Translations under genes and position numbers: made by a program
Source of the DNA: a virus
Length of the DNA stretch: 63,327 bases
Strand: one strand, 5' to 3'
IMG/VR virus record: IMGVR_UViG_3300025325_000020
Location: 1-63,327 of that record
Shown here: piece after piece, positions 19,706 through 63,327 of the stretch
How the letters are laid out: the number at the start of each line of letters is the position of its first letter
Numbering within the stretch: position 1 is the stretch's first letter
The notes under the pieces: model-generated
Databases searched by the model: none
Seen by the model: the letters and a program-made list of their open reading frames with translations, nothing else
What the model was told of the DNA's origin: nothing

Positions 19706-19778
19706 GCCGCCCTAGCTCATCCGGTAGAGCAGGCGTTTCGTAAACGCCAGGTGATCGGTTCGACCCCGATGGGCGGCT
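19706..19778 (+). tRNA. tRNA-Thr (anticodon CGT)
   Basis: A full cloverleaf is visible: acceptor GCCGCCC/GGGCGGC, D arm GCTC..GAGC, anticodon stem GGCGT/ACGCC with loop TTCGTAA, and T stem ATCGG/CCGAT with loop TTCGACC. CCA is not encoded. It is either a phage tRNA or the integration-site tRNA carried at attP. Confidence 0.92.
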
Positions 19779-19821
19779 CTGGTTTTATTTGAACCTTATT
19801 ATGTTGTTAAGGTGCCACTTT

Positions 19822-42576: not shown

Positions 42577-42823
42577 CGTAGCAGACAACGGCCACGGGGC
42601 AAGGGCAAAAGTGGATCCCCGCGGAGAATCGGTCAAGGTCGAGGCCACCGGATTGGTGAGGATCGACGGCATTGCCTGTTTCAAGCGCGTCGAGCGGGCC
42701 GGCAAAATCTACCTGCAATTCTGCGACAACGACCGGCTGCGCGCTTCCTGCCGCGGCACGCGCCTGGTGGAGGTGCCCCTGGAGTCGTTGTTCCAGATTT
42801 TAGAGATGGAGAAAAGGCAATGA
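42563..42823 (+). CDS. Small hypothetical protein
   Basis: 86 aa from a GTG inside the second copy of the 48-bp repeat. The C-terminal ~50 residues are beta-rich (GLVRIDGIACFKRVERAGKI...). It overlaps the epimerase gene by 4 nt. Its function is unknown. Confidence 0.55.
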   Translation: MGNNIVADNGHGARAKVDPRGESVKVEATGLVRIDGIACFKRVERAGKIYLQFCDNDRLRASCRGTRLVEVPLESLFQILEMEKRQ

Positions 42824-43743
42824 AAATCATGATCACCGGATCGCGGGGTTTCGTGGGCGCGGCAACCAAGGATTATCTGGACCATATTGTCCAGAAAGGG
42901 AATTCCCACCCTTGCCAGGCGCTCGACTATGACCTGATGGACGGCCTGGACATTCGCGACGCAAACCAGCTCAAGGAATTCGCTAAATGCCATCGCCCTG
43001 ACCGCATCCTCCACTTAGCCGCCATCGCCCGCTTTGCCGACGCCGACAAAGACCCGCTTTTAGCCTGGCAGACCAATGTATTGGGCACGCAGAACGTGGT
43101 GGACGTGGCCGCGCGCTACCACATTCCCCTGGTATACGCATCGACTGGCTCCGCCATCATGCCGCTGGACGAGTTCGAGCCACCGTACAAGGAATTTCTC
43201 CCCGCGCGCGGCAACTCGGTGTACGGCTGCTCGAAAGCGTTGGGGGAGTGCATCGTGCGGCAGCATACCCCCCATATCATCCTGCGCTATGCCCACCTGT
43301 ACGGGGCGGAGAAACGCCATCACGGTCTTATAGGCGGGTTCCTGGATCGGATCGGGAGGGGACTTCAGCCAAGGCTGTTTGGGGGCAGGCAAAGCAACGA
43401 TTTTGTTTACATAAAAGATGTTGCACGAATAAATTATCTGGCGCTGGCTTCGAGCTGGGACCGCTGGAACCAAACCTTCAATGTCGGCTCCGGACAGGAG
43501 CTTTCGACGGAGCAGGCCGGGGAAATTATATGCCGGGTCGCCGGCTACACCGGAGCTATCGAGCGCTTGCCCGCACGCACGGTCGATCCGGGCCGGTTCA
43601 TTTTCGATACCGGCAAGGCCGCTGAATGGCTGGGTTTTGAAGCGGAGTTCGATTTCGAGAGCGGCCTGGCGGATATGATGGGGAAGGCGGAGAAAGCCGG
43701 GCAGGGAATGACAGTGAACGTGGAAGCGTTCATGAGAGGATGA
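42820..43743 (+). CDS. NAD-dependent sugar epimerase/dehydratase (extended SDR)
   Basis: 307 aa. Rossmann motif TGSRGFVG, then ILHLAAIAR, the active-site Ser/Thr region YASTGSA and catalytic Y-x3-K in VYGCSKALGE, then FNVGSG. It interconverts or dehydrates nucleotide sugars. It lies inside the head genes, coupled by ATGA to the previous one, and belongs with the methyl/sulfotransferase and glycosyltransferase genes at 47.7-50.9 kb. Confidence 0.88.
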   Translation: MKIMITGSRGFVGAATKDYLDHIVQKGNSHPCQALDYDLMDGLDIRDANQLKEFAKCHRPDRILHLAAIARFADADKDPLLAWQTNVLGTQNVVDVAARYHIPLVYASTGSAIMPLDEFEPPYKEFLPARGNSVYGCSKALGECIVRQHTPHIILRYAHLYGAEKRHHGLIGGFLDRIGRGLQPRLFGGRQSNDFVYIKDVARINYLALASSWDRWNQTFNVGSGQELSTEQAGEIICRVAGYTGAIERLPARTVDPGRFIFDTGKAAEWLGFEAEFDFESGLADMMGKAEKAGQGMTVNVEAFMRG

Positions 43744-46224: not shown

Positions 46225-47604
46225 ATGAAAACAAATCTCGTGCAAAGGACCCGCACGGCCCCACCGCCAGTCGGGAGAGCTGCTTCGATCGGCGGGCGAC
46301 CCGTCCGGCGCGACCGGGGCGATCTGACGGTGAGCGCCTTAGCCACCATCTACGGCTGCTGCGGCTTGTTCGACATGTGCTCGGACGCCGACCTCATGTC
46401 GCTGACTTTCGAAGGCGCCTCGCCTTTCCTGGACTGGATCGGCTGGGAGCGCACCGACGTGTGCGTGATCAAGAAAAACTTCATCACCTTCGTGCGCGCC
46501 GAAGGCAGCCAGGGGGCCGAGACCGCCGGCTGGCTGGCCGACCCGTGCGCCGACCCGCACGGGGTCGAGTGGGGCGAGTGCGATTTCACCTTGACCGACT
46601 TCGCCCGCCTGCGCCGCTCGGGTCCGACCCGCGACATCACCAAGACCGGCCTGCGCTACTGCGACATCCAGCCGCGGTACAGGCTCGACGGGACGCGCAT
46701 CGACGACGACCGCGAGTACGACATGGTGCTGGCGTTGGAAGTCCTCATGCAGGACTTGAAGGACATGGCCGTCTCCGGCAACGCGGCCACCCCCGGCCAG
46801 TTCGACGGCCTCGAAAGGCTCATCAAGACCGGCTACGTCAACAGCCACGGCCGGCGCTGCACGGCCATGGATTCGGTCGTGATTGACTGGAACAACAACG
46901 GCATGGACGGCGGGGCCGGTATCACCTGGAACGGCCTGCCGGTGGCCGCGACTTATTCCTTCGTCGAAGTGCTGCGCGCGGCCTATAAGCGCATCCGCCA
47001 TCGCATCCGCATGGCACCCTCCCTGGCCGCGCAGAGGCTCAACGTGGGCGATATCGTGCTGGTGCTGCCCGAGGACTTCGTGGACTGCGTGCTGGACGCC
47101 TACACGTGCTGGAGCGTGTGCGACGGCACTTCCACCAACCTGGTGGCGCTCAACTCGCTCGAAGGCCGCCGCTTCCGCGACAGCCTGCTGGGCGGCATGT
47201 TCGGGGGCGGGCGCATCTTCTTGGACAGTTTCGAGATCCCCGTCCTGCCCTACGACTGGGGCCTGATCAAGGGGCCGAACCATTTTGACGCTTACCTCCT
47301 GACGGGCCAGGTGGGCAATATCAAGGTTTTGCAGGGCCAGTACAACGACATGGCCCCGGTATCGGCCAAGCGCGCCGACCGCTACAACACGGACGGCGGG
47401 CGTATTTTGACCTGGCGCGAGGACGATCACACCTGCGAGCAGCAGATCGTCGAGATGCAGCCGCGCATCCTGGCCTGGGCGCCCTGGGCGGAAGTCCGCT
47501 TCCAGGATGTCAACTGCGCCGTGCCGGGCGGCGTGATCGGGCCGGATCCCTGGGAGACGAGCTTCTTCCCTGAGGGCTCCTTCTCCGTGGCGGCCTGCCC
47601 GTAA
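46225..47604 (+). CDS. Major capsid protein
   Basis: 459 aa from ATG 46225, with a strong GGAGGAAGAA site. Position after the protease-scaffold, size and the absence of enzyme motifs support it. Many Cys and Asp residues are present (IYGCCGLFDMC; DPCADPHGVEWGECDF), unusual for an HK97-fold capsid and perhaps giving metal or disulfide stabilisation. A 14-bp hairpin follows the gene. Confidence 0.8.
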   Translation: MKTNLVQRTRTAPPPVGRAASIGGRPVRRDRGDLTVSALATIYGCCGLFDMCSDADLMSLTFEGASPFLDWIGWERTDVCVIKKNFITFVRAEGSQGAETAGWLADPCADPHGVEWGECDFTLTDFARLRRSGPTRDITKTGLRYCDIQPRYRLDGTRIDDDREYDMVLALEVLMQDLKDMAVSGNAATPGQFDGLERLIKTGYVNSHGRRCTAMDSVVIDWNNNGMDGGAGITWNGLPVAATYSFVEVLRAAYKRIRHRIRMAPSLAAQRLNVGDIVLVLPEDFVDCVLDAYTCWSVCDGTSTNLVALNSLEGRRFRDSLLGGMFGGGRIFLDSFEIPVLPYDWGLIKGPNHFDAYLLTGQVGNIKVLQGQYNDMAPVSAKRADRYNTDGGRILTWREDDHTCEQQIVEMQPRILAWAPWAEVRFQDVNCAVPGGVIGPDPWETSFFPEGSFSVAACP

Positions 47605-47631: not shown

Positions 47632-47665
47632 CACCCTGGTCCTGGTGTTTGCCAGGACCAGGGTG
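47632..47665 (+). other. Strong hairpin after the major capsid gene
   Basis: A perfect 14-bp stem (47632-47645 with 47652-47665) and TGTTTG loop without a T tract. It may stabilise the capsid mRNA or reduce read-through into the sugar genes. Confidence 0.7.
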
Positions 47666-47675
47666 GGGAGCAGCT

Positions 47676-49154
47676 ATGCCGGTGAAATCAAACGGCTACA
47701 AGCGTTCGCCAGAGGAATGGGCGCAGGTTTGCCTGTCGGTGGACAGCGGCTATGTCCCCGGCGGGAAGCGCCAGGCAGCCGGTCTGTACGAGAACGGCTG
47801 TAAGTACGTCCGCGAGCGCATCCGCCCCCTGGGCTTGTGGAAAGCCGGCGACGTAGTGCTCGATATCGGCTGCGCCAACGGGCGGGTTGCGATGGGCCTG
47901 CTCGAGGAAGGCGTCTTCTATCACGGCCTCGAGATCGTGGCCGGCTGTGTGAAGTTCTGCGAGAGCGCCTTCGCCCCCTGGAGAAACTTCCACTTCCACT
48001 ACCTGGACGCAGCCAATCCCCGCTACAACCCGGGTGGGCAGATCCAACCCGAGCGCGCCGTCTTTCCCTTGCCGGACGCCTCGATAGACGTGGCGATTGC
48101 GTCCAGCCTGTTTACCCACCTGGAGACGCCCGAAGTCGCGGCGCGCTACCTCGGCGAGACATGGCGTGTGCTCAAGCCGGGCGGCAGGCTGTTCGCTACC
48201 TGGCTGCGCAGCCCGCCGAACGAAGTCGCGCAATCCGCGGCGCGCACGGTCTACCGCGAGGCCGATATCCTGAATCTCTTAGGCGGGCGCTGGACGATCC
48301 TGGACACTTCCCGCGGCTTGACCGATGCCCCGCACGACCAGTGGACGTTGGCGCTTTCTAAGTCCGATCCGAGAGTATCCATGCACTACATCCTTGCCAA
48401 AGACGTACAGAACGTGGTGGTCTCCGCCCAGCGCAGCGGCACGACCTGGCTGCAAGCCCTCCTGGGCGCTTACTTGTGCACCGCCTACGGGCTGCCGGAC
48501 GGGAACCTCATGAAGGCGTTGGACCTGACCCGCTCGGCCGGGCTGCCCGTGACGGCTTTTACGCATGACCCCCAGCGGGATCTGCCCGCTTGCCCGCCGG
48601 TCGAGACTGAATACGCCGGCAAGCGCATTGCCCTGCTCGTGCGCGATCCGCTCGACACGCTCCTGTCGCAGTTCATGCTGGCCCGCCACCGCCGCCGCAC
48701 GGTAAGCGCCGAGACATCGGCGCGGGATTACATCCTGGAGAAGCTGCCTGCCCTGTTGGCCTTCTACGAGGCCTGGCTGGGCGCGGATAAATCCGCTTTC
48801 GGCGGCTTCGAGGTCTACACCTACGAAGCCTTCCACCAGGACGCATCCGGCGAGCTGGAGCGGCTGGCGCAGTTTTTCGGGTACGCCTCGAACCGCGAAG
48901 CGCGCTGGGCGGCGGTGGAGTTCGCCGATTTCGAGCACATGCAAGCCATGGAGAAGAGCGGGCGTTTCCACGAGCACTACGCGGTCAACGACTTCCTGCC
49001 GGTGGAGGACGCTCGCGCCATGCGCACGCGGCGCGGCCGCATGGGCCGCGGCCGGCGGGCGCTTGCGGAGGCGGACATTGAGCGGGCCGAGAAATCGATC
49101 GCCGCCTCTCCCCTTGTAGGCGCATTGTACGCCAGGGAAGCCGCCGGTGGATAA
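47676..49154 (+). CDS. Methyltransferase-sulfotransferase fusion
   Basis: 492 aa from ATG 47676. Residues ~60-225 are a class I SAM methyltransferase (VLDIGCANGRVAMGLLEEG; later VLKPGGRLFATW). Residues ~250-450 have sulfotransferase features: SAQRSGTTWLQALLG (5'-phosphosulfate loop), VRDPLDTLLSQFM (3'-phosphate site) and YTYEAFHQDASGELERLAQFFG. It would methylate and sulfate a glycan or other acceptor using SAM and PAPS. It sits between the capsid gene and the glycosyltransferase. Confidence 0.82.
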   Translation: MPVKSNGYKRSPEEWAQVCLSVDSGYVPGGKRQAAGLYENGCKYVRERIRPLGLWKAGDVVLDIGCANGRVAMGLLEEGVFYHGLEIVAGCVKFCESAFAPWRNFHFHYLDAANPRYNPGGQIQPERAVFPLPDASIDVAIASSLFTHLETPEVAARYLGETWRVLKPGGRLFATWLRSPPNEVAQSAARTVYREADILNLLGGRWTILDTSRGLTDAPHDQWTLALSKSDPRVSMHYILAKDVQNVVVSAQRSGTTWLQALLGAYLCTAYGLPDGNLMKALDLTRSAGLPVTAFTHDPQRDLPACPPVETEYAGKRIALLVRDPLDTLLSQFMLARHRRRTVSAETSARDYILEKLPALLAFYEAWLGADKSAFGGFEVYTYEAFHQDASGELERLAQFFGYASNREARWAAVEFADFEHMQAMEKSGRFHEHYAVNDFLPVEDARAMRTRRGRMGRGRRALAEADIERAEKSIAASPLVGALYAREAAGG

Positions 49155-49158
49155 CGGG

Positions 49159-50931
49159 ATGGAATCCTTGACGGTTGTCGTCCCCTTCTGGAACGGCCAC
49201 GCCACCATCGAACGCCTGCTGGAGTCGCTGCCTGACGCTCTGCCCGTCGTGGTGGTGGACGACCAGTCCGATTCGCCTTACCGGTCGAAGCGGGAGAACG
49301 TGACCGTCATCCGCCCCGCGGCGAAAGGCTATTTCGCCGGGGCGGTCAACGCCGGCCTGTCGGCCTGCGGCGGGGATGCGCTGGTCGTCAATCAGGATGC
49401 CTGGCTCGAAGGCTCCGCCTGGCTTGACCTGCTAGCCGAGGAGCATGAGAAGCACGCTCTTATTGGGCACGGCGTGATGGCGCACCCGGCCTGGCCGAAA
49501 GGCTACGTGCAGGGCACGTTCATGTTCCTGCGCCGTGACGCGATCTCGAAAGTAGGCGGCCTGAATGCCCGCGATTACCCCTTGTGGGGCTGCACCGCCG
49601 AATGGCAGGTTCGCGCCGCCCGTGCCGGTTTCCGCGCCCTGCCTTTGCCCGAGATCCCCGGCTTCCACCACCAGGAGCGCAAGCCGGGCGCTTTCGGCGA
49701 TTCCATCACCGAGGCGCTGCGCAGGGAGCCGGGCGAGAAAGGCCGCTTTATCCGCACCCCGCCCATGATCAGCATTATCGTGCCCTGCTTCAACTATGGC
49801 AAATATTTGCCGGATCTCGTGGCTTCCCTGGCGGGCGGGCCGTCCAGCCTGGGGAATATGCTTGGCCAAACCTTCGCCGCCTGGGAGCTGGTCATTGTAG
49901 ACGACGCCTCCACCGACAAATCGGCGGAGATGGCCGCGGCGCTGGCCGATCCCTGGAAGGGCATCCGCCTGGTGAGAAGGGCGAAGAACGGCGGCACGGC
50001 GGCGGCCAACAACGACGGCGTACGCGCGTCCTTCGGACGCTATATCACCGTCCTGGGCGCAGACGACATGATGGAGCCATACCGGCTTGAAGCCCTCTAC
50101 CAGGCGGCGGAGGCCCACCCGCACTCCGTCGTCTACGACGACGTGGCCCTCTTCAAGGCCGGCGAGCGCATGCAGACCTGGGCCATGGCGGAGTACGACT
50201 TCGAGAAGCTGCTGCAGAAGAACCATATGCACGCCGGCATCTTGTTTCCCAAGAAAGCCTGGGAAGAGACCGGCGGCTACCCGGAGAGTATGCGCGAGGG
50301 CCGCGAGGACTGGGCCTTCAACGTGGCCCTGGGAGTCTGGGGCTACTGCGGGGTGAGGGTGCCGAAAGCGGGCTACCTCTACCGCCGCGAGAAGCACAAC
50401 CGCACGCTCAGGAATTCGGGCCCGGGCTGGAGGGAGCGATTTACAGGCCAGATGAAAGCCTTGTTCCCAGGGCTGTACAAAGGAGAGAGACCGATGGCAT
50501 GCTGTGGAGGCGGGCGGGCGCCCGCCAGGAAAATGAACGGCAAGGGGGCGGCCAGCCTGCCCGGCGCGGCCGGCATGCTGCGCATCGAGTACGCGGGCTT
50601 GAACGATGGCGACATGCCCTGGTACGGGCCGGTGACCGGCACGCGCTACGTGTTCGGCGGGGTGCACAAGACAGGCTACATCGACCCGCGCGACGCGCGC
50701 ACCGGCAATTCCAAGAAGCCGGGCTTGCTCGATATCTGGGAGCACGGGCGGGCGCAGTTCCGAGAGGCCCCGCTGCCGGTCCAGGCGGTGGCAATGCCGG
50801 CGGCAGCCCCGGCGATTGCGCCGGAGGCTGAGCTGGAAGCGCCAGAAGCCCCGGTAGAAGTGGTTGTCGAGACAGAACTGACCCCGCTCCCCAGAAGCAC
50901 CCCACGGCGGAGGAAGAAAAGTGGCGATTAG
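49159..50931 (+). CDS. Double GT2 glycosyltransferase fused to a small virion-type protein
   Basis: 590 aa from ATG 49159 (a GTG at 49147 is possible). The first GT-A domain covers ~1-200 (VVVPFWNGHATIERLL, VVVDDQS, YPLWGCTAEWQVR). The second covers ~205-435 (ISIIVPCFNYGKYLPDLV, VIVDDASTDKSAE, VLGADDMM). From residue ~446 comes a different domain, CCGGG..., YGPVTGTRYVFGG, GYIDPRDARTG, as in small proteins that follow capsid genes. An ATG with AAGGAGAG at 50494 could start this last domain alone. Confidence 0.85.
   Translation: MESLTVVVPFWNGHATIERLLESLPDALPVVVVDDQSDSPYRSKRENVTVIRPAAKGYFAGAVNAGLSACGGDALVVNQDAWLEGSAWLDLLAEEHEKHALIGHGVMAHPAWPKGYVQGTFMFLRRDAISKVGGLNARDYPLWGCTAEWQVRAARAGFRALPLPEIPGFHHQERKPGAFGDSITEALRREPGEKGRFIRTPPMISIIVPCFNYGKYLPDLVASLAGGPSSLGNMLGQTFAAWELVIVDDASTDKSAEMAAALADPWKGIRLVRRAKNGGTAAANNDGVRASFGRYITVLGADDMMEPYRLEALYQAAEAHPHSVVYDDVALFKAGERMQTWAMAEYDFEKLLQKNHMHAGILFPKKAWEETGGYPESMREGREDWAFNVALGVWGYCGVRVPKAGYLYRREKHNRTLRNSGPGWRERFTGQMKALFPGLYKGERPMACCGGGRAPARKMNGKGAASLPGAAGMLRIEYAGLNDGDMPWYGPVTGTRYVFGGVHKTGYIDPRDARTGNSKKPGLLDIWEHGRAQFREAPLPVQAVAMPAAAPAIAPEAELEAPEAPVEVVVETELTPLPRSTPRRRKKSGD
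50494..50931 (+). CDS. Internal in-frame start: small virion-type protein
   Basis: ATG 50494 lies in the same frame as the glycosyltransferase and is preceded by AAAGGAGAG at ideal spacing. The product would be 145 aa: a CCGGG knuckle, the TGTRYVFGG domain, then an acidic Ala/Pro/Glu tail and a basic end (RRRKKSG). It is likely to be made both alone and as the end of the enzyme. Confidence 0.55.
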   Translation: MACCGGGRAPARKMNGKGAASLPGAAGMLRIEYAGLNDGDMPWYGPVTGTRYVFGGVHKTGYIDPRDARTGNSKKPGLLDIWEHGRAQFREAPLPVQAVAMPAAAPAIAPEAELEAPEAPVEVVVETELTPLPRSTPRRRKKSGD

Positions 50932-51244
50932 GCTGATCCTGGCTGCTTTCGCCGTCTACCGCCTGGCCGGGATGGTCGCCCTCGACGTGGGCCCGTTCGG
51001 CGTCTTCGAACGGCTGCTGGCCTGGGCCGGAAGGTTGGCGGCAGGCAAGCCCAAATACAGCGCGGCCTGGAGCCTGGCCGAGGCCCTCAACTGCCCTTAC
51101 TGCCTGGGCGTCTGGCTGGCAGCGCCGGTCTGGCTGCTGGTCAGGTCGAAGGGCAAGTGGAGCGATTTTATCCTGGGCGTCTTCGGTGTCGCCGGGATGC
51201 AAGCGTTTTTGGAAGATTTGGAGGGATCGCATGGCCCCAAGTAA
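50921..51244 (+). CDS. DUF1360-like membrane protein
   Basis: 107 aa from a GTG at 50921 (GGAGGAAG upstream). Hydrophobic segments, then LDVGPFGVFERL and CPYCLGVW, the Cys pair typical of DUF1360. Such proteins turn up among phage structural genes. Their role is unknown. Confidence 0.75.
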   Translation: MAIRLILAAFAVYRLAGMVALDVGPFGVFERLLAWAGRLAAGKPKYSAAWSLAEALNCPYCLGVWLAAPVWLLVRSKGKWSDFILGVFGVAGMQAFLEDLEGSHGPK

Positions 51245-60735: not shown

Positions 60736-60952
60736 CATCTTCCCCGATCTCGACGTGGCGCACTTCTGGCGCATCGAGAATCCCCTGGATTTTTGGGGGC
60801 TGCCGGTTGGAGCCAGGACGCTCATGAAAGCCTACGCCTGGGCGGTGGCCGACATGCGCGCGGTGGAGGCCTACGAGCGGGAGCAGGAAGCCGAGAAACG
60901 GAAGGCGGAGGCCCAGGCGCACGCGCCCAGGGGCCGGAAACGAAGCAGATGA
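60644..60952 (+). CDS. Tail assembly chaperone, downstream frame (probably by frameshift)
   Basis: The +1 frame is open from 60644 to a stop at 60950-60952 that overlaps the tape measure ATG. Its only start-like codon is a GTG at 60755 without a ribosome binding site. The frame encodes DLDVAHFWRIENPLDFWGLP..., then a charged coiled coil and a basic tail. A +1 (or -2) shift somewhere in 60644-60735, for instance at TTT-C near 60652, would yield a longer GT-like protein. Confidence 0.55.
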   Translation, partial: RPPFGLRYKKRALAECPKLASDWSISSDLPNIFPDLDVAHFWRIENPLDFWGLPVGARTLMKAYAWAVADMRAVEAYEREQEAEKRKAEAQAHAPRGRKRSR

Positions 60953-63327
60953 CCACACCCAACGAAGTCGGACTCGATGCAGTCTTCAAGACCGAGAAGT
61001 TCCAGGCCGGCTTGGCGCGATATATCGCCGGGCAGGCCCAGGCGCGCGCCTCCACCCAGGCTACCGCCGGCCACATCTCCAGCGTCGGCGGAGGCATGGC
61101 GTCCGGCTTCGGCGCGGCCATCTCGGCCCTATCCGGTCCGCTGGGGTTTATAAGCAACCTGATCGGGTCCACGCTCGGGGCGGCCATCGGCACCCTGACG
61201 GGCACGCTGATCCCAGGTTTGCTTTCGGGCTTATCCGATATCGCCTCAGGGGCAGTATCCGCCGTCTCCGAGCTGCAACTGCTTACTATCACGCTAGAGT
61301 CTTTGTCCGCGCGCGAAATTTACGTGTCGGGCGGAGCAGCTTCGATGACAGACGCCCTGGCCCAAGCCGGTCCGATGGCGGATGCTCTTTTGGGATCACT
61401 GCGCGAGCTTTCGATTATTTCTCCATTCGAATACAAAGATGTAGTCAATGTGTTTCGGTTAAACATGGCATTTGGGCAATCATCTGAGACGGCCCTTGAA
61501 CTGACAGATGCCATTTTGAACATGGCCGCAGGAATGGGCTTAACCGGACCATTCCTGGAGCGCATTGCTTATAACTTCTCACAAATGAATCTGGTTGGCA
61601 AAATCACTGCAATGGATATGCGCCAGCTAGGCCAGGCCGGGATAGACCTTGGCCGAATTTTGAGAGAAGAATTGGGCGTGTCTATGGAGGAAGCCAACGC
61701 AAAGCTCCAATCCGGGTCTATTACTTTCAAGGAAATTTCCCAGGCTTTTGTAGATTATGCAGAAAAGAACGTAGGGAATGCGGCCCAGCGCGCTTCTCGT
61801 TCCCTCTCCGGTCTGGCGTCGTCTTTCCGTGATCTGCTCTTTTTTGCCTCCGCCGACTTATTTGGTTCGGCCTTCGGCACGATTGGGGATGCGCTCGGCA
61901 CTGTCTTTGATAAGGCCAACGAGTTCGCAAGCTCGGGCGTGCTGCAAATGGTGGGGGCAGGCCTCGATGTGGTCGCGCAGCAAGCCGTATCCGCAGGCGG
62001 GTCGATCCTGACCTGGGCCGGCTCGCTCTTCGATGGGCTTAACGTAACCTTCGAGGACATTGCCGGGGCGGCTTTCGACTGGGGCGCGAATATCGTGCTG
62101 ATGCTGGCGCAAGGCATCATTGCCGGAGCCGCCGCCGTGCTCGACGCCTTACTTTTTATCGGCAACATCATCGCCGCCTGGCTGGGGCCCGGCTCGCCTC
62201 CTAAGATCGCCCCCGATCTGCCCGAGTGGGGGCGCGCCGCCATGCAGGAGTTCTTAGGCGGCTTTGCATTAGCCACCGGCGAATCGCTCCAGAAAGCGGC
62301 CGGCCCGCTCGAAGCCTGGGGCGATACCGCCCTCAACGCGCTCTTCAAAGGTTTTTCCAGCGCCGACTTCGACATCTTCGACTCTCTTCTCGGCCCGCTC
62401 GAGCAAGCCCTGGGTGTGATGCAGAAGCTCGGTGACGTGACCGAGGCCCAGGTGCGGGAGACCCTGGGCAGCATCTCGGAAGTTATGGCGCAGGCCCTGG
62501 CCGAGTTCGAGAAGACCGGGCAGGTGGGCCCGGAAGTATTCGACGCCATCCGCGCGGCGGGCGGCGAATTAGGGGACGAATTAGCCGACCTCCTGCAGAA
62601 GCAGCTTGATTTAGCGGCCGGAGTGAAGAAAGTCGAAGCCGCCGAGAAAGCCCTGGACGAGGCCCGCCAGCGCCAGGAACAGGCGACCCAGGATGTCTCA
62701 GACCTGACTTCCGAGTATAACCGCATGCTGCGCGCCGGAGCCAGCGACGAAGCCCTGCGCCTGAAGCTGGAGGAGATCAACGCGGCCGAGAAAGCGCGCG
62801 GCGAGGCCGCCGGCCAGGCCGACGAAGCCGAGCGGGCCCTGGAAGCGGAGAAAGAGCGCCAGAAAGCCCTCCAGGAGTCTGTCAAGCTCCAGGAAGAGCT
62901 TCTTCGGCAGCTCATCGAGCTGGCCCGCCAGCAGATCCCGCCCAAGGAAGGCGAGGAGACCGGCGGCGGTGGTGGGGGAGGCGGGGGCATCGAGCCGCCC
63001 GAGTTCGCCCCGCCCGAGATCCCCGGCGTCGGCCAGGGATTGGGCGAGATCGAGAAGAAAGCCGCCGCGTTCAAGGAGCGCATCGAGAAGCTCTTCGAAG
63101 ACCTGTGGTCCAATATCGCCCAATCCATCGAAGACTCGGAGATCGCCAAGAAATGGGAGGAGCTGACCAAGGAGGCCGAGAGCATCTGGAACGAAGTCTG
63201 GCCGGTGCTGGAAACCAAGTGGGCCGGGTTCTGGAGCCTGCTGGATATCATCTCCGGCATCGTCCAACCCAAGGTTTCCCAGAACATCCAGGACATCGGC
63301 ATCGACCTGCAGGACATCGCGTCGAAG
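60949..63327 (+). CDS. Tape measure protein, N-terminal part (continues at base 1)
   Basis: 793 codons, open to the last base, in phase with 1-1128. ATG 60949 overlaps the previous stop. A hydrophobic region covers ~50-110 (AISALSGPLGFISNLIG...), with a GPGSPPKIAP segment, then coiled coils (~560-650), a Gly run (~665-675) and amphipathic helices with Trp. This is the usual layout of tape measure proteins. Confidence 0.92.
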   Translation, partial: MTTPNEVGLDAVFKTEKFQAGLARYIAGQAQARASTQATAGHISSVGGGMASGFGAAISALSGPLGFISNLIGSTLGAAIGTLTGTLIPGLLSGLSDIASGAVSAVSELQLLTITLESLSAREIYVSGGAASMTDALAQAGPMADALLGSLRELSIISPFEYKDVVNVFRLNMAFGQSSETALELTDAILNMAAGMGLTGPFLERIAYNFSQMNLVGKITAMDMRQLGQAGIDLGRILREELGVSMEEANAKLQSGSITFKEISQAFVDYAEKNVGNAAQRASRSLSGLASSFRDLLFFASADLFGSAFGTIGDALGTVFDKANEFASSGVLQMVGAGLDVVAQQAVSAGGSILTWAGSLFDGLNVTFEDIAGAAFDWGANIVLMLAQGIIAGAAAVLDALLFIGNIIAAWLGPGSPPKIAPDLPEWGRAAMQEFLGGFALATGESLQKAAGPLEAWGDTALNALFKGFSSADFDIFDSLLGPLEQALGVMQKLGDVTEAQVRETLGSISEVMAQALAEFEKTGQVGPEVFDAIRAAGGELGDELADLLQKQLDLAAGVKKVEAAEKALDEARQRQEQATQDVSDLTSEYNRMLRAGASDEALRLKLEEINAAEKARGEAAGQADEAERALEAEKERQKALQESVKLQEELLRQLIELARQQIPPKEGEETGGGGGGGGGIEPPEFAPPEIPGVGQGLGEIEKKAAAFKERIEKLFEDLWSNIAQSIEDSEIAKKWEELTKEAESIWNEVWPVLETKWAGFWSLLDIISGIVQPKVSQNIQDIGIDLQDIASK

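Follow-up and report, generated by a model that had tools for sequence, protein, structure and literature searches.

A candidate in-frame nested gene in a phage glycosyltransferase gene may supply a small cysteine-tipped protein in free and enzyme-tethered form

A glycosyltransferase (GT) frame in the phage genome studied here runs without a stop into a small cysteine-tipped protein (the small CC protein), and a putative internal ribosome binding site and start codon stand at the border between the two. We favour, with moderate confidence, the reading that this is an in-frame nested gene with two products, a GT carrying a docking subunit and the same subunit in free form, which would place the enzyme at assembly. 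The window, as we call the whole stretch of DNA analysed, is one entire IMG/VR record of 63,327 bases. Its central features are as follows.

49147..50931, + strand: fused open reading frame (ORF), two GT2 domains plus the small CC protein, 594 aa; full-length homologues exist
49147..50493, + strand: enzyme part with two GT2 domains, the second the best matched (residues 209-348 by PF00535)
50479..50496, + strand: putative internal ribosome binding site, AAAGGAGAG-N6, with an in-frame start codon; judged by anti-SD energy and synonymous recoding
50494..50931, + strand: candidate nested gene for the small CC protein, 145 aa, with a C3 C4 G5 motif

The fused frame starts at GTG 49147 or ATG 49159, ends with the stop codon at 50929-50931 and is unbroken between them. 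Glycos_transf_2 (PF00535) of Pfam matches it in two stretches, with 134.7 bits (cut-off 23.3), which identifies the enzyme as a GT2. Chondroitin synthase is an enzyme with two GT domains in one chain and, to our knowledge, with no C-terminal CC protein that has its own start. It gave the best solved match of the second GT2 domain (PDB 2z86 and 2z87, E 4.5e-13), and two GT domains per chain are common to both enzymes. At the domain border, AAAGGAGAG occupies 50479-50487, N6 occupies 50488-50493, and ATG 50494 follows in frame as codon 450. The original prediction had stated both that the GT frame enters the CC protein without a stop and that a Shine-Dalgarno (SD) sequence, six bases and an ATG stand at the domain border; both statements are borne out by the uninterrupted ORF, and the predicted inner product is 145 aa long.

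Scans based on the GT returned close relatives (41-57% identity), in each of which a start codon marks the border to an in-frame Cys-tipped protein. A scan with the upstream capsid gene (34 loci) was chosen to escape the bias of these GT-based scans, and all loci retrieved were then searched with a small-protein profile. At E <= 0.01 the profile matched 46 loci as well as the window; 15 matching loci were duplicates by border DNA, and 31 distinct borders remained. At 30 of the 31 the two parts form an in-frame, stop-free fusion, and at one (L112; L240 is the same contig) the small gene stands alone, in a frame that begins 57 bases past the capsid match, at a locus with no GT. The capsid-based scan taken by itself gave the small protein in 29/34 loci; these amount to 25 distinct ones, of which 24 are fused and one is stand-alone. 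Among the five loci that lacked it, three are contigs that end too early (L098, L111 and L127), and in L125 and L128 the capsid gene was present and the small protein was not found in the stretch examined. First scans using the small protein or DUF1360 alone as the query gave no matches; among the 47 loci of a DUF1360 scan, 12 had a small core that could be recognised, all on known contigs, and no stand-alone case was added. Two fused relatives come from MAGs that carry the names Anaerolineae (L018) and Chloroflexota (L019). A capsid tree, from which the window row, the duplicates L103, L118, L119 and L121, and L131 were left out, places L112 among the fused members, at a weakly supported fork (80/52).

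A sequencing error masking a stop near 50480, which the original prediction had allowed for, is ruled out because the same uninterrupted frame is found at 30 distinct fused borders. The prediction had also considered that homologues might always be fused and have no internal start; instead the internal start is conserved, and homologues encoded as separate genes exist in L112 and on three Chloroflexota chromosomes. The shared frame is also no general habit of these genomes, since the enzyme and the small protein are in frame 0 in 30/30 fusions while the control junction from the small gene to the DUF1360 gene is in frame 0 in 1/30, in +1 in 21 and in +2 in 8. The single frame-0 case of the control junction, L015, has another gene in between.

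A conserved fusion could also mean that only the fusion is made, in which case the SD-like stretch would be the relic of a separate gene or a place of pausing between the domains. Retention of the fusion at 30/31 borders agrees with this, and SD-like stretches inside genes do occur by chance; many single cases, the window included, are non-significant against synonymous recoding. For the window by itself the result is borderline (P 0.045 and, in a second test, 0.138); the case rests on the family. Across the family, the border SD is stronger than expected from synonymous recoding with each gene's codon use (Fisher 4.8e-7, and 2.0e-8 by energy, p-values that ignore phylogeny and treat related members as independent), and the test applied to 90 control positions gives 0.995. 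The mean anti-SD energy at the border is -9.3 kcal/mol. Of the other in-frame ATGs within the enzyme parts, 7/314 in the 30 fused homologues and 0/13 in the window reach the energy of the border in the same gene. As a side observation from the neighbouring methyltransferase-sulfotransferase ORF, an in-frame ATG at 48381 also lies near a domain border and, in contrast to 50494, has no SD.

The codon usage and the residues at the border point the same way. The GGAG core is spread over the three codon phases (15, 8 and 6 cases), and so amino acids alone do not explain the SD; the exceptions are L117, which has no GGAG, and L004, in which the spacing is long. Glycine codons near the border are GGA or GGG in 28/33 cases, compared to 15.2 expected. 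The border codon is ATG in 29/30 fusions and GTG in the remaining one (L016). The second residue of the small protein is one of A, C, G, S and P in 31/31, and a small residue at this position fits the rule for removal of the start methionine; base +4 is G in 22/31. A point on the other side is that the structure at the border is weakened only a little relative to other places (mean z +0.38 with a standard error of 0.16, n=30). A relic would be expected to decay, yet divergent members retain the SD, the start codon and the pattern at residue 2, and a pause site would require no start codon, let alone a GTG in L016 and an SD in three phases. We therefore consider production of the fusion alone very improbable. 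The comparison indicates that the internal start is selected at the DNA level across the family, and a genuine nested start at the border appears highly probable.

With a rough rule for picking enzyme starts, the inner SD was stronger than the outer in 22/28 cases, and the start codon was ATG in 27/28 inner and 15/28 outer starts. The rule leaves out L013 and L112 and finds no candidate in L100; L017 and L130 look mis-picked, and a re-picked L130 would count against the stronger inner SD and lower the count to 21/28. As the inner start signal tends to be the stronger of the two, the short product is probably the more abundant. The original proposal that the small protein may occur both free and tethered to the enzyme is well supported by the comparison through the fusion, the internal SD and start, residue 2 and the stand-alone homologues.

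The enzyme joined to the small protein is not always the same. A GT2-GT2 enzyme is present in 24/30 fusions (L013 is cut by the contig end), only the second GT2 domain in 4/30 (L102, L104, L106 and L107) and another GT2 in 2/30 (L016 and L110). A biased pattern scan added eight fusions (L135, L143, L168, L170, L173, L175, L181 and L182), which were selected for an SD and a start and so were kept out of every SD statistic. One of these, a 1000-aa frame at L181:8121-11120, carries a GT4 (GT group 1) domain and two GT2 domains followed by the CC protein. The GT is variable and the small protein with its start is constant across the family. Because this constant protein joins several GT modules, a docking subunit fits better than an acceptor.

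The original suggestion of an enzyme that brings its acceptor along, with the GT adding sugar to the tail fused to it and, in trans, to free copies, has in its favour that the enzyme and the small protein are fused at 30/31 borders and that C3, C4 and G5 are invariant in the small-protein alignment; some GT2 enzymes glycosylate Cys. The tail is poor in possible acceptor residues, however, with Ser and Thr after residue 95 making up 12% on average (29 proteins), and the Cys motif is kept without a fused GT in L112 and in the chromosomal genes of G243, G120 and G308. The suggestion thus found no support, and we regard it as improbable, S-glycosylation of the Cys being a form that it might still take.

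The small protein itself begins with MACCGGG and has a beta-rich core at about residues 29-91 (model pLDDT about 95), followed by a low-confidence tail rich in Ala, Pro and Glu. The tails differ among members, some of which have E3-binding or helix-hairpin-helix domains. The 145-aa part gave no match in Pfam or PHROG, three queries against 50,697 phage records returned no relatives, and no Foldseek match at E <= 0.001 was obtained in PDB or BFVD; the best VIA-align Z was 3.4. Membership of a known family was rejected, as the core matches nothing and the few scattered matches are mostly to tail domains by name. An SH3-like barrel, guessed from the sequence pattern, was dropped when the structure searches gave no fold match. 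Unrelated short phage ORFs in L154, L185, L145 and L139 also open with MGCCGG; these were selected by pattern, and the resemblance may mean nothing. For the original label of a virion-type protein, the support comes from context, the small gene lying near an HK97-fold neighbour (46225-47604); the small protein itself gave no fold match. A role as a part of the virion is accordingly something we infer from gene order. The genes concerned are the following.

46225..47604, + strand: major capsid protein with an HK97 fold by model (Foldseek, VIA-align)
47649..49154, + strand: methyltransferase and sulfotransferase in one ORF, between the capsid gene and the GT
50921..51244, + strand: DUF1360 gene with a CPYC motif, the constant downstream neighbour of the small gene
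42820..43743, + strand: nucleotide-sugar epimerase, upstream in the head region (Pfam, PHROG)

The product of 46225-47604 can be modelled as an HK97-fold major capsid protein. The best Foldseek E against this fold was 2.5e-10, from a model with a pLDDT of only 60.9, and VIA-align superposed the model on 7f38 (Z 14.7, 264 aligned, rmsd 5.1) and on HK97 2fs3 (Z 11.7, 227 aligned, rmsd 4.3). Ten cysteines of the capsid protein (C45, C46, C52, C80, C108, C146, C295, C299, C404 and C458) are invariant in 11 relatives, which is unusual beside a CC-tipped small protein. Large terminase and tape measure protein are also encoded in the window. In relatives the same region encodes a GT4 (L019), a UDP-sugar dehydrogenase (L015) or an FkbM methyltransferase (L016), and the sugar-type enzymes beside the capsid gene look like a glycan cassette. 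Tape-measure frames at 60793-63327, running off the end, and at 1-1128, open at base 1, match in codon phase, and the record is therefore probably a circular, complete genome. It also carries a single-copy tRNA-Thr (CGT) gene at 19706-19779.

The DUF1360 gene follows the small gene in 30 of the 31 distinct loci (L099 is cut by the contig end), with an intervening gene in 2/30 (L015 and L016). It matches DUF1360 and phrog_781, and not GtrA, in Pfam and PHROG. On three Chloroflexota chromosomes (G243, G120 and G308) the small protein occupies a frame of its own adjoining a DUF1360 gene; the loci L208, L209 and L210 are Chloroflexota chromosomes with DUF1360 and the stand-alone CC protein, and of L210 (G308) no more than 1979 bases are covered. 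Similar large proteins are encoded upstream in G120 and G308. Small-protein matches were found in 3/301 sampled Chloroflexota genomes, one of them the fused G001, and in 2/41 genomes of the family of G120. No capsid gene was seen near the chromosomal small gene in the 9-13 kb read. Because it is a separate gene beside DUF1360 on three chromosomes, the small protein is an independent unit with DUF1360 as its constant partner, and this pairing away from any capsid gene in the 9-13 kb weakens the capsid reading. DUF1360 genes are also present beside sugar-type enzymes in the phage contigs L217, L220, L221 and L222, where no CC protein was recognisable.

These pairs raise the possibility that both products are real and that their anchor is the membrane-type DUF1360 protein. 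In that case the GT would act at the host membrane, on cell-surface sugars or lipid-linked ones, and the small protein would be no part of the virion. Along with the constant neighbourhood in phages and chromosomes, this agrees with matches of the second GT2 domain to phrog_841 (GtrB-like, O-antigen conversion) and to polyprenyl-phosphate GTs in PDB. Gtr-type surface conversion joins a GtrB-type GT to a GtrA-type flippase; here the GtrB-like match falls on the second GT domain, and the DUF1360 neighbour has no match to GtrA. The GT matches are generic for GT2, however. The genes moreover lie inside the head region directly after the HK97-fold capsid gene, and the stand-alone gene of L112 is found in the head region without a GT. 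On balance we find a membrane anchor unlikely, although it deserves more weight than self-glycosylation of an acceptor tail.

Under the reading that we prefer, a nested gene for a docking subunit, one mRNA would carry two starts. The outer start would yield a few chains of a GT2-type glycosyltransferase with the small CC protein as its C-terminal part, and the inner start, from the ribosome binding site at 50479-50496, would yield more chains of the small CC protein alone; both the products and their ratio we infer from sequence comparison. The small protein would be the constant unit of a head-region module made up of the capsid gene, the small protein and DUF1360, with a GT joined to its front. 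Fusion would let the enzyme join an assembly of free copies, most likely in the capsid shell or else in a complex with the membrane-type DUF1360 protein, the former favoured by the head-region position and the latter by the chromosomal pairs. A few tethered GTs among many free copies could then glycosylate the particle, together with the epimerase, methyltransferase and sulfotransferase. That a shared subunit places the enzyme seems to us somewhat probable; that the capsid is the place of docking falls slightly short of an even call. More tentatively still, interchangeable GTs with a capsid-associated tail protein may be a device for loading sugar enzymes onto the growing virion.

Enzyme genes with a nested C-terminal part are known from other phage systems. 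In the endolysin LysIME-EF1 an internal ribosome binding site has been shown, and three free domains join one full-length chain in the assembled enzyme (PMC7098653); CTP1L is another two-component phage endolysin made from one gene (PMC4777826). The likeness lies in an enzyme and a C-terminal binding domain encoded in one frame, with an internal ribosome binding site and start at their border. The endolysins, however, are cell-wall hydrolases for lysis, and the gene described here encodes a GT2 and follows a capsid gene; products and assembly were tested for the endolysins, whereas here they are predicted. In phage lambda, Nu3 has an internal start within C. In lambda C/Nu3 an enzyme of the head region thus has a C-terminal part that also exists as an assembly protein by itself (PMC8508860). 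That enzyme is a capsid protease encoded upstream of the capsid gene, and its free product is a scaffold, in contrast to the GT2 found here.

Glycosylation of virions has been described in mycobacteriophages. For Che8 and Rita, phage-encoded GTs are linked to glycans of the major capsid protein, and the putative GTs of Maravista sit near the 3' end of the genome (PMC11256854, citing Freeman 2023 for the former). The available text of that paper mentions no nested or fused structural partner, and glycosylation in the present case is predicted from gene content. No nested GT gene in phages was found in the literature searched. The nested-gene principle is known, and its use for interchangeable GTs beside a capsid gene was not found in that literature.

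If the proposed arrangement is true, a rule for annotation follows, in that gene callers report one GT at such loci and miss the nested gene. A phage of this family would glycosylate its own particle efficiently, with the enzyme built into assembly by a shared subunit, and virion glycosylation in Chloroflexota-associated phages would become testable through a single gene.
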